DNA from: a virus
Reading direction: 5' to 3' (one strand)
Length of the DNA: 44,189 nucleotides
IMG/VR virus record: IMGVR_UViG_3300005527_000094
Location: 1 to 44,189 of that record
Positions 1,794 to 20,851 of this stretch are shown here, one piece after another. Position 1 is the stretch's first letter. Every line of letters starts with the position of its first letter. Both the position numbers and the translations under genes were made by a program. The notes beneath the pieces are model-generated. The model saw nothing but the letters and a program-made list of their open reading frames with translations. It had not been told where the DNA came from and made no database searches.

Positions 1794-2972
1794 TTAACCA
1801 ATACCATCAGTGGTTACACTTGCAGCAGATGTAAATGCAACTGTATTACAAGTACACAATGCTACATCATCTACCAAAGCATCAAAGTTATCAGTAAAGG
1901 CATCTAAGATTGTGAGCAATGCAGTAAGAGTAACATTAGCACCATTAGTACATGGAATAGCAATAATAGTGTTAAGTTTAGATTTGTTTTGTTCCCAACC
2001 TGCTACTACCTCATTCATGTAATGAAGATTTACTTGATTGTAAATAGCACCATTAGTAGAGAATCTTTCAAATTCTCCAAGTGCTGTACCAACAAGTTCA
2101 CCTACTCTGTATGGGCCTGGTTTTCCATTCCATCCACCTGCTTCATATTCTAACCATCCAATATCAGTACCTTGACCTTCACCAAAAGAAGGTTCTTGGA
2201 AAGTAGCTGTAACTGCTTTGCAACTCAATGGTTCTAAAACAGATACTGTCATTTTAAATTGACGCATTTTGTAATAACGCAAAGGAATATTACAGTAAGC
2301 ATACAATTTAGAAGCTACACTTGTTAATCTTACACCTAAGCATAAGCCTGGGTTAGCAACAATCCAAGCATCAACTCCAGCAGCAGCTACAACAACAGGG
2401 CTACCTGGAGTAGTAGTGAAGTCAAGATAGTCAGCTTTAACAATGCCATCAGTATCAGCATTAACTGCATTAACAAACAATTCAGCAAGTTCATTGCAAT
2501 CTCCATCAGGGCAATCACAACCTGCACCACAACATCCTGTTCTTACAGAGAATGTTTTAGCAAATTGGTTAAAGCCATAATTTTGATAAGCTTGAGTATT
2601 ACCTCTAAACTCTACTTTGAAAGTGTAAGAACTTTCACATTGAATACCACTAAAATCAGTAATATCTACAATGTGTGCTCTTTCAGGATTATAACATCTT
2701 AGGGTATAATCTGTTACACCTTTTCTTTGAATGTTTTGACCTGCTGAAACTCTAATGCTATCCATTACAGTATCACCATCTTCATCAACACCTACAGCTA
2801 AGAAAATAGCTCTTTCATTTGCTACACCAGCAGCATTTAAAGAAAGACCTGTTTCAGCAGAAAACACACCTATTTGTCCAACAGCTAAAGCTGTAACTCT
2901 ACTGCCTGCTGCTAAAACAGCTTGGTCACCTGTTGGGATAAGGACTTGAAATACAGGATTATTTGCACTCAT
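1794..2972 (-). CDS. Virion structural protein (neck/tail component candidate)
   Basis: 392 residues. The N-terminal 60 residues (PVFQVLIPTGDQAVLAAGSRV ... GVFSAETGLSLN) form a compact beta-rich domain. It is followed by a Cys cluster around residue 150 (TGCCGAGC, CDCPDGDC) and a long second beta domain that includes LRYYKMRQFKMTVSVLEPLSC. I recognise the style as a conserved structural protein of crAss-like phages but cannot name its exact position in the particle. It sits just after the probable ring protein and is closed by a terminator, consistent with high late expression. The Cys cluster may bind metal or form cross-links. Confidence 0.6.
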   Translation of the reverse strand: MSANNPVFQVLIPTGDQAVLAAGSRVTALAVGQIGVFSAETGLSLNAAGVANERAIFLAVGVDEDGDTVMDSIRVSAGQNIQRKGVTDYTLRCYNPERAHIVDITDFSGIQCESSYTFKVEFRGNTQAYQNYGFNQFAKTFSVRTGCCGAGCDCPDGDCNELAELFVNAVNADTDGIVKADYLDFTTTPGSPVVVAAAGVDAWIVANPGLCLGVRLTSVASKLYAYCNIPLRYYKMRQFKMTVSVLEPLSCKAVTATFQEPSFGEGQGTDIGWLEYEAGGWNGKPGPYRVGELVGTALGEFERFSTNGAIYNQVNLHYMNEVVAGWEQNKSKLNTIIAIPCTNGANVTLTALLTILDAFTDNFDALVDDVALCTCNTVAFTSAASVTTDGIG

Positions 2973-2986
2973 TTTTTAATAAATTT

Positions 2987-3706
2987 TTAATTGTTCAAAA
3001 GAGAAATCTTTTGTTGTTTGATTTGAAAATCAGGAATCTGCATTTGTCCTGTAAGAATAAGTACAGCTAAATCTACAATTTCTCTATGAGTATGTTCAGG
3101 TAATTCACAATCTTGACTTCCTGTTAATACAGTACCATCAGGTAAATTGTAAGTTCCCCCTACATAATCTTGAGCATTATGGATATAGGCAGGTTTCCTA
3201 ATGTAATTAAATTCGCATATAGATTCAATAATAAAGGTTCCATCAGTAAACACTCTGAGTCCACTTTCAAAAAATCTACAATTGATTTCTCTCCATTCAA
3301 AGGAGCTTGAATCAAAAGGAGATTCTTCATGCATGTCATCATGTTGCTTTACAAACAATCTTGATTGAATGTTTTCACAATTTCCTTTAGTTATACAAGC
3401 ATAACCTGAAATGAAAAACATATAATTGTTTGGTAAGAGTACTTCATAAGAAGTAGTATTAAAAACAGCAGCAGAAAGAGGAGTAAGTTCATTCACTACC
3501 AAAGTACGAATATCATCAATACTCCTCTGATTCACTTCAAATCCAAATCCATTTTTATTTCTTGGTTCTGCAATGAGTTTAATAAAAACTTCTTGAGCTT
3601 CATTTAATGCCCAATCAATTTCAGGAACTCTTAAATTCCTGTATTGTTGAGAATCAACTTTATTCAGTTTAGTCTTTACATCATACTGCATTCCTCGGAT
3701 ATCCAT
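2987..3706 (-). CDS. Probable head-tail connector / ring protein
   Basis: 239 residues. The N terminus (MDIRGMQYDVKTKLNKVDSQQYRNL followed by PEIDWALNEAQEVFIK) has the helical character of phage adaptor proteins that dock under the portal. The rest is beta-rich, and the C terminus is helical again (HREIVDLAVLILTGQMQIPDFQIKQQKISLL). In crAss-like phages a protein of this size and start follows the capsid genes and is a neck ring component. The assignment is by resemblance and order, moderately sure; a general neck protein is the alternative. Confidence 0.55.
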   Translation of the reverse strand: MDIRGMQYDVKTKLNKVDSQQYRNLRVPEIDWALNEAQEVFIKLIAEPRNKNGFGFEVNQRSIDDIRTLVVNELTPLSAAVFNTTSYEVLLPNNYMFFISGYACITKGNCENIQSRLFVKQHDDMHEESPFDSSSFEWREINCRFFESGLRVFTDGTFIIESICEFNYIRKPAYIHNAQDYVGGTYNLPDGTVLTGSQDCELPEHTHREIVDLAVLILTGQMQIPDFQIKQQKISLLNN

Positions 3707-19597: not shown

Positions 19598-19624
19598 ATA
19601 TAAAAGGAGAAATCCTTTTATATT
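19597..19624 (+). terminator. Hairpin terminator with GAAA tetraloop
   Basis: AATATAAAAGGA pairs with TCCTTTTATATT around GAAA, followed by TTCTTTTC. Confidence 0.85.
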
Positions 19625-19634
19625 TTCTTTTCAT

Positions 19635-19667
19635 CCATTCCCTCTCCACCCCCACTTATTTTGGACA
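19635..19667 (+). promoter_or_regulatory. Phage promoter-like element, copy D
   Basis: CCATTCCCTCTCCACCCCC followed by ACTTATTTTGGACA. A TATTAGTTTG box, matching the Bacteroidota -7 consensus TAnnTTTG, lies at about 19690. It stands before a non-coding stretch closed by a terminator. Confidence 0.6.
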
Positions 19668-19875
19668 ATTAAATTATTACAGTTATCGTATTAGTTTGAC
19701 ATGGTGTATTAGTGTAATAATGTTATGGAAATAAAACAAACTAAAGGTGTTTTCCTTATTGCTTTGGAAATGTAAATCCACAATCTCAGAGCATTAGCAA
19801 ACTCGAATTCTAAAATTAAAGAGTGTTAAGCTCAAACTTAAAGGGAATGTCAATGAAAAACATTCCCTTTATTTT
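19668..19875 (+). ncRNA. Small non-coding transcript candidate, about 180-200 nt
   Basis: A promoter-like element precedes it, and a terminator hairpin ends it: AAAGGGAATGT (19840-19850) pairs with ACATTCCCTTT (19860-19870), then ATTTTACT. No reading frame of useful length is present. The unit is therefore best read as a short RNA gene, or as a leader attenuator for the structured region that follows. No known family recognised by eye. Confidence 0.5.
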
Positions 19876-19879
19876 ACTA

Positions 19880-20400
19880 AATAACAAAAGTCCAAACATC
19901 TAATAATATTGATTGTAGTTTTCTATAGGGAAACATAGTTGATATTGTTATACAAATTATTAAAATCATGTAATATTAAAACGTAGTTCTTGGTTATTCA
20001 GCATACCAAACAATAAGTTAAAATAAACAAACAGGCTAAACATTGATTCCTGAATGAACAGAAGTAAGCTTACAGCAATAAGGTGTAATTCCTTAACATG
20101 TTAGTGGATTAAAGTTCTACTGTAAGCTAAGTAAGCAAAATTCATTAAAGATGTCCAATGAAAGTTGGAATGTGTTGTTCTCTTGAGAAAGGAATAAAAA
20201 TCTATAGGTAAGAGGGAAAGCCAAGTAGCCCTACAACACAAATGAGTTCTCAGCAAGTGATTATGTATAGTTGAAAGTACTGCACTATCTGAAATATTGA
20301 TAGAACGAAATCATTGAAATAATCACGTGACCCTACTCTTACAATGACAGAGAAATCGTTTCCTTTGGGGATAGTTGTAAGAGAGGGTTCTAAAAAAATA
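19880..20400 (+). ncRNA. Large structured non-coding region upstream of HNH gene
   Basis: About 520 bases with no gene but many exact long-range pairings. AGCTTACAG (20067-20075) pairs with CTGTAAGCT (20120-20128) and encloses TAAGG/CCTTA. TGTGTTGT (20171-20178) pairs with ACAACACA (20233-20240). GTGATTAT (20257-20264) pairs with ATAATCAC (20319-20326) and encloses the CTATC/GATAG hairpin. A 14-bp stem with one bulged A joins 20330-20344 to 20375-20388. This looks like one multi-branched RNA. It may be an ornate phage RNA, as known near phage tRNAs, or part of a self-splicing intron. The strand is taken from the surrounding genes. Confidence 0.55.
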
Positions 20401-20410
20401 AATTTATCAT

Positions 20411-20725
20411 ATGGAAAAGTGGAAAAACATTGAAGAATCTAATAATTATGAAATATCTAATTATGGCAGATTTAAAAACAGAAAAGGTAAAATATTAAAA
20501 TGTAATATAAATAAAAGAGGATATTTATATTGTAACATTAGTATTAAAGGTAAAGTTAAAAAAGTAAAAATTCACATCTTAGTAGCTAAAGCTTTTTGTG
20601 AAAATTTACAAAACAAAGATACAGTTAACCATATGGATGGGAATAAACTCAATAATAACAGTTCAAATTTAGAATGGTTAACAAGAAAAGAAAATGTTCA
20701 ACATTATTATAAAAACAAAAAGTAA
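20411..20725 (+). CDS. HNH homing endonuclease with NUMOD4 motif
   Basis: 104 residues. The start (EKWKNIEESNNYEISNYGRFKN) is the NUMOD4 motif. The HNH motif follows: His55 in KIHILVAKAF, NHMDGNKLNNN at 73-83 with His74 and Asp76, and NLEWLTRKENVQH at 86-98. Such enzymes nick or cut DNA and spread as selfish elements, free-standing or inside introns. It sits inside a highly structured non-coding stretch, with structured RNA on both sides, so it may have inserted into, or be carried by, an RNA element. Confidence 0.88.
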   Translation: MEKWKNIEESNNYEISNYGRFKNRKGKILKCNINKRGYLYCNISIKGKVKKVKIHILVAKAFCENLQNKDTVNHMDGNKLNNNSSNLEWLTRKENVQHYYKNKK

Positions 20726-20851
20726 AAATGGTTATATGTAGTCAGCCCTGAAAGTTGGCAGCTAACCATTTGTTTAACAATGTAAAGAAATAGTTAGTCA
20801 GCTGGTGTATAGTTGCCTAACGTCCACAATTTAGCACGTACATTGTTTTTT
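20726..20851 (+). ncRNA. Structured RNA segment downstream of HNH gene
   Basis: Two adjacent hairpin modules. AAATGGTTA (20726-20734) pairs with TAACCATTT (20763-20771). AACAATGTA (20776-20784) pairs with TACATTGTT (20839-20847) and is followed by TTTTTAA, a terminator-like end. Each module contains TAGTCAGC, so they may be duplicates. With the structured stretch upstream of the HNH gene this may form one RNA interrupted by the gene. Confidence 0.5.

Follow-up and report, generated by a model that had tools for sequence, protein, structure and literature searches.

A conserved structured RNA with exchangeable inserts beside an HNH gene in a crAss-like phage

Background

Does the DNA around a short HNH endonuclease gene in a phage genome encode one large structured RNA and, if so, does the gene interrupt that RNA or adjoin it? 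The question is raised by a stretch of 44,189 nucleotides (the whole of which is called the window here), in which an initial annotation had placed such an RNA at 19880-20851. The source record is a crAss-like phage; its portal protein is about 50% identical over 96% of its length to those of crAss-like phages, with the best matches in Flavobacterium psychrophilum phages such as Fpv1, and the terminase, portal and DNA polymerase families are consistent with this assignment. A 62-kb IMG/VR contig overlaps the window, and the two are 100% identical over 10.7 kb around the RNA.

Identification and structure of the RNA

Perfect Watson-Crick stems of at least 9 bp number six, against 4.1 ± 2.1 in shuffled sequences (49 of 200 shuffles reach six), and the z-score of single-sequence folding (-1.3 to -2.0) is not decisive. 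The at least six perfect stems noted initially are therefore not above chance in number, although several of them do form helices in a conserved RNA. It is comparison, and not the counting of stems, that identifies this RNA as real. A 19-base word from helix P7 (see below) was found in an unrelated contig, L004, the flanks of which carry the whole core without an HNH gene. A BLAST search matched the Cellulophaga phage phi14:2 (E-value = 3e-4 with 30 bases and 2e-13 with a composite query), and further relatives were recovered by two pattern scans for which parts of the core served as bait. The 66 distinct long-form relatives are on phage contigs, one of them in the cultivated phi14:2, where the element spans about 2908-3365. 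The only matches to the exact core word beyond viral contigs were in two MAG contigs, both with phage-type genes.

The structure was drawn by hand from anchors in the relatives (P0, S2, hp3, P1/P2, the pseudoknot, P6 and P7). Its parts in the window are as follows.

20032-20394, + strand: conserved structured RNA, long form, 5' hairpin through CUAA tail
20032-20052, + strand: hairpin P0, CAGG-CUAAACAUUGAUU-CCUG; 4/4 paired in the window, two-sided changes in 4/4 family pairs
20053-20146, + strand: stem S2 (20053-20058/20141-20146), enclosing variable insert V1; 6/6 paired, two-sided changes in 7/7 family pairs
20154-20169, + strand: hairpin hp3, UCCAA/UUGGA, with the loop AGUAAU in most relatives; 5/5 paired, two-sided changes in 5/5 pairs
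20171-20240, + strand: P1, UGUGUUG/CAACACA, enclosing P2 and variable insert V2; 7/7 paired, two-sided changes in 6/7 pairs
20178-20194, + strand: hairpin P2, UUCU-CUUGAGAAA-GGAA; 4/4 paired including one G-U, two-sided changes in 3/4 pairs (alignment A1)
20183-20253, + strand: pseudoknot of the P2 loop UUGAGAA (20183-20189) with UUCUCAG (20247-20253); 7/7 paired including one G-U
20257-20326, + strand: P6, GUGAUUA/UAAUCAC, enclosing variable insert V3; 7/7 paired, two-sided changes in 8/8 pairs
20330-20388, + strand: P7, ACCCU(A)CUCUUACAA/UUGUAAGAG-AGGGU, enclosing variable insert V4; 14/14 paired, with one bulged A

The conserved RNA thus takes up only part of the extent first annotated. Its 5' hairpin was set by the motif GGCUAAACAUUGA, which is common to most relatives, and by pairwise alignment with the HNH-free relative L173; the start at 20032 is accordingly a placement by motif and not by the model, which put P0 at 20104 because the S2 insert of the window is long. 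Within V1, a substem AGCUUACAG/CUGUAAGCU (20067-20075/20120-20128) forms a perfect 9-mer. L173 has a V1 insert similar to that of the window and so shares part of the long S2 insert. An example of covariation in P2 is UCAC/GUGA in L197. The two strands of P7 (20330-20344 and 20375-20388) are nearly invariant in the outer part of the helix and covary in the inner part. This helix is the 14-bp stem of the initial annotation; it does have 14 pairs, but they are broken by the bulged A, and the unbroken perfect maximum is 10. The pseudoknot is paired in 62-66 of 72 relatives, yet it lacks covariation in the long form because it is nearly invariant there.

Covariation in the family as a whole is very strong. 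In a 66-member alignment (A3) fitted to a covariance model, 41 of 48 pairs have two-sided changes among the distinct relatives, a figure reached in none of 500 shuffles of this model-aligned set, and the covariation score is 0.336, compared with 0.099 for shuffled alignments and no more than 0.081 when the structure is slid. In a separate MAFFT alignment of 24 trimmed sequences, two-sided changes occur in 28 of 55 pairs, as against 11 in shuffles (0/500). A model made from 23 relatives without the window (R2) recovers the element of the window at 20104-20394 (80.5 bits, E-value = 1.9e-22) and no second copy. G-U pairs are common and, at one position in hp3, U-G is the commonest pair, which indicates that the constraint acts on RNA. 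Relatives free of the HNH gene carry this same RNA, and not an ordinary coding gene. The conserved fold agrees with the first proposal of an RNA that is large and multi-branched, pairs over long range and is of the sort known from phages and the neighborhood of tRNAs.

Setting of the long form

A tRNA gene is located within 500 bases of the long form in nine of 59 cases, every one on the same strand. The element of the window is 4.4 kb from its nearest tRNA, in agreement with the 4 kb noted before. A tmRNA adjoins some long-form copies, likewise on the same strand. The next ORF starts within about 40 bases in about 16 of 49 relatives, and a role in the transcript of that ORF is possible. The downstream ORFs and RNA genes, however, differ among the relatives, without the consistent downstream gene that a cis-regulatory leader or riboswitch would have, and the RNA is therefore not the leader of one gene.

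Several matches and annotations at these loci were set apart from the family. A BLAST match in a Lak phage was examined and is not this RNA, and weak model matches in crAss001 and DAC15 fall inside or straddle annotated protein genes and were taken as chance. The model search gave no match in ProJPt-Bp1 or in Flavobacterium phage FPSV-S29, and in Fpv1 only a 24-base partial match (E-value = 0.05). A reading of AUGAGUUCUCAGCAAGUA as a short reading frame was rejected, as its AUG is not conserved. Three short reverse-strand ORFs annotated across the RNA of phi14:2 (L128 3106-3431, gp007-gp009) are probably not genes. In L079 and L099, the RNA is just upstream of a tmRNA gene backed by Rfam (about 93 bits); an ARAGORN call of a tmRNA near the phi14:2 copy is not backed by Rfam and was not used.

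A short form and exchangeable inserts

About 76 further copies belong to a short form, in which the same P1/P2 core is followed by a hairpin (for example, GAGGA-CUUCUCA-UCCUC) with a loop complementary to that of P2. The stem of this hairpin covaries (GAGGU/ACCUC, GAGGC/GCCUC, GGGGA/UCCCC and AAGGU/ACCUU). Support for the pseudoknot comes from the short form, where the partner strand is in the hairpin loop and where a copy in L123 has both loops changed by two compensatory exchanges; a loop-independent scan recovered UGAG in real copies. All 55 nearest-tRNA placements within 500 bases of the short form are on the same strand and none is on the opposite one. The short form begins 1-3 bases after one tRNA and usually ends 5-7 bases before the next, and it was found directly between tRNA genes in L014, L030, L043, L112 and about 70 other loci, with up to four copies in the sampled locus L112.

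A single insert can be 86-100% identical between members whose other slots are unrelated. L150 and L199 share an insert in this way in V3, L100 and L155 share one in V4, and that in V2 of the L107 long form is shared with the L098 short form; some inserts were also found in other scaffolds. As far as comparison of sequences reaches, the RNA is a conserved scaffold with four slots for variable, exchangeable inserts. The idea that the inserts are stable hairpins on their own is unsupported (mean fold z of -0.8 to +0.1).

Upstream of the RNA in L157, L170 and L197, a third scaffold (AATCAGAAACCC...GAAAGACACAGGTTGGTAA) was recognized, which is either empty or filled by the insert also present in slot V4 of L107. 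Besides these, L112 (3770-3870), L014 (2650-2750) and L031 (6500-6620) contain tRNA-like genes in which the acceptor, D- and T-arms are good but the variable middles are very long; ARAGORN mostly gives no call for them.

The HNH gene, a neighbor here and an invader elsewhere

The gene in the window is located on the same strand as the RNA.

20411-20725, + strand: NUMOD4-HNH homing-type endonuclease gene (Pfam NUMOD4 3.1e-11 and HNH_3 7.4e-9; PHROG_59 6.7e-35)

It is intact, encodes 104 amino acids and begins 16 bases after the RNA element. Only a handful of 64 sampled relatives have an HNH gene near the RNA, within flanks of at most 2.5-3 kb that are limited by the locus ends, and in L173, L004 and phi14:2 no such gene adjoins the RNA. 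Because the gene is outside the RNA, and the RNA occurs without it, the gene in the window is a neighbor and not a part of the RNA. The first description, of an RNA that an HNH gene interrupts or that carries one, thus does not apply to the window, but it does to other phages.

Direct reading of L018, L029, L144/L175 and L203 places a NUMOD4-HNH gene, either intact or in decay, inside the RNA gene, where a first copy of the RNA is truncated after AAATGAGTTCT and followed by the HNH gene; in L190 and L165, the right-hand junction, the HNH gene and the upstream unit are recognized. The 3' end of the cassette carries a second version of the 5' part of the RNA, with its own covarying P1/P2 and a loop of the UGUAUGAGAUA type, and this cassette-borne part is joined to the resident 3' half. 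Uninterrupted relatives of such 3' halves were found in L189 for L190 (239/240 identical) and in L110 for L029, and in L135 and L149 the replacement half is present without an intact HNH gene. The entry site of the cassettes is GAGTTCT, the uninterrupted site being GAGTTCTCAGCAAG. The arrangement suggests that the cassettes home into the RNA gene and restore the RNA as they do so, the endonuclease presumably cleaving the entry site. At the same GAGTTCT site, L178, L201 and L204 have long inserts devoid of ORFs, with the common motifs ATATAGTCC and AGTAATGGTAAAGATTGTAAT.

Both the gene of the window and those inside the relatives belong to the NUMOD4-HNH endonucleases (PHROG_59). The cassette of the relatives is distinguished by its entry into an RNA gene, for which it supplies a replacement half, with no intron recognized. 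The Allomyces mitochondrial atp6 element is a mobile gene that carries a copy of one end of the gene it invades and thereby restores it. In both cases the invader provides a substitute for what it has displaced; in Allomyces, however, this is the end of a protein gene, whereas here it is the 5' half of a non-coding RNA.

Nature and possible role of the RNA

No Rfam family was matched by the window or the relatives, either at the gathering thresholds or at E 10, and GOLLD, ROOL and the group I and group II introns, of which all but the last had been suggested as identities, were among the models searched. GOLLD is a phage RNA of unknown function that is often near tRNA islands and has kissing loops, and ROOL, which occurs in phages and prophages close to tRNA islands, has no known protein partner (PMC12286853). 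The element resembles both in being phage-encoded and often near tRNAs, a likeness of setting only, and one more marked in the short form than in the long one, and a distant relative missed by the Rfam models might be imagined from this setting and the kissing loops (PMC12286853). However, neither model gave a match at E 10 with lax filters over 401 and 1361 bases, and the core of about 195 positions is far shorter than the roughly 600-800 or more of those RNAs and has different helices. GOLLD is also unlike it as regards the short, tRNA-abutting form and the exchangeable inserts, and we regard such kinship as extremely improbable. A self-splicing intron is equally hard to credit. HNH genes are common in introns, and long-range pairing and a pseudoknot are present here; but neither the group I core model nor the group II models were matched at E 10 in the window or the relatives, no split gene or joinable exons were found (as the initial annotation had also remarked), the relatives lie between genes or tRNAs, and nearly all of them have no HNH gene nearby. 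Two other classes were examined and set aside. HEARO, the omega RNA of IscB, was not matched, and the 104-residue protein is of the NUMOD4-HNH_3 and not the IscB type; and neither a covariance model nor ARAGORN calls the element a tRNA or tmRNA.

There remain readings in which the element works where it lies. A cis-acting leader or processing element, which would shape, protect or free neighboring transcripts (tRNAs, tmRNA or the next ORF), fits the short form, placed exactly between tRNAs, and the many long forms closely followed by an ORF or a tRNA. The long form, however, adjoins unrelated genes with no consistent target, and is bigger and more conserved than a spacer needs to be. A cis role is thus possible, particularly for the short form, but unlikely as the general explanation. 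A DNA-level element, such as a site of replication, packaging or recombination with the hairpins formed by single strands, would account for the exchange of inserts and the dispersed copies, which resemble recombination hot spots; the free use of G-U pairs and the strict same-strand placement with tRNAs speak against it, and it seems very improbable. In our view, the element at 20032-20394 probably encodes a structured RNA that stands alone and acts in trans, and that belongs to a phage family not included in Rfam. The general kind, a structured phage RNA near tRNAs, is already known. The family itself appears to be new, with the caution that our search of the literature, in which no description of it was found, covered neither most subscription journals nor any preprints.

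If the RNA acts in trans, it would be transcribed with its own cluster of RNA genes or with neighboring genes, freed by ordinary RNA processing, and would build up in folded form in infected cells. Its invariant core (the UUGAGAA/UUCUCAG pairing, AUAAAGAU, GCAAGU and GUGCUAA) would then act on a host or phage factor, while the inserts may be tolerated or diversified. On this reading, the HNH gene of the window is an independent mobile gene, and elsewhere HNH genes have invaded the RNA gene at GAGTTCT with a substitute 5' half, such that the downstream RNA stays complete. More tentatively, these features may together represent a modular phage RNA system, in which a fixed pseudoknotted scaffold, in long and short forms, has slots that trade inserts across phages and scaffolds, and which is parasitized by HNH cassettes that enter its most conserved strand with a replacement 5' half. 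About 140 long and short copies were sampled, from crAss-like and from larger phages, so that something common in phage biology would have gone without a name, and the exchangeable inserts and HNH cassettes would offer a case of mobile genes and recombination remodeling RNA genes. Since the cultivated phi14:2, a phage of Cellulophaga baltica, carries a copy, expression and function are directly testable.

Sequences flanking the RNA and the HNH gene

The 125 bases after the HNH gene, initially taken as a part of the same RNA, contain instead a local hairpin and a separate element.

20726-20771, + strand: local hairpin AAAUGGUUA/UAACCAUUU; 9/9 paired
20776-20850, + strand: small conserved element d3, the core of which recurs in L014 and L205-L209

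Relatives of the local hairpin were sought and none was found. The element d3 is a second conserved element, distinct from the RNA at 20032-20394. Its outer stem, AACAAUGUA/UACAUUGUU (20776-20784/20839-20847), is a perfect 9-mer, and its inner stem pairs GUUAG (20793-20797) with CUAAC (20817-20821). In L014 and L205-L209, which are near-identical to each other, the core lies just upstream of tRNA-Ala within tRNA arrays, and both stems have compensatory changes. The element resembles the acceptor and D-arm of a tRNA, yet no tRNA is called.

The terminator-like stem that was thought to end the region was not borne out, as a terminator scan found no such site. On the 5' side, no relatives of 19600-20030 were found among the loci compared. 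At 19839-19871, a perfect 12-bp hairpin is followed by T-rich sequence, and is plausibly the end of the upstream transcript.
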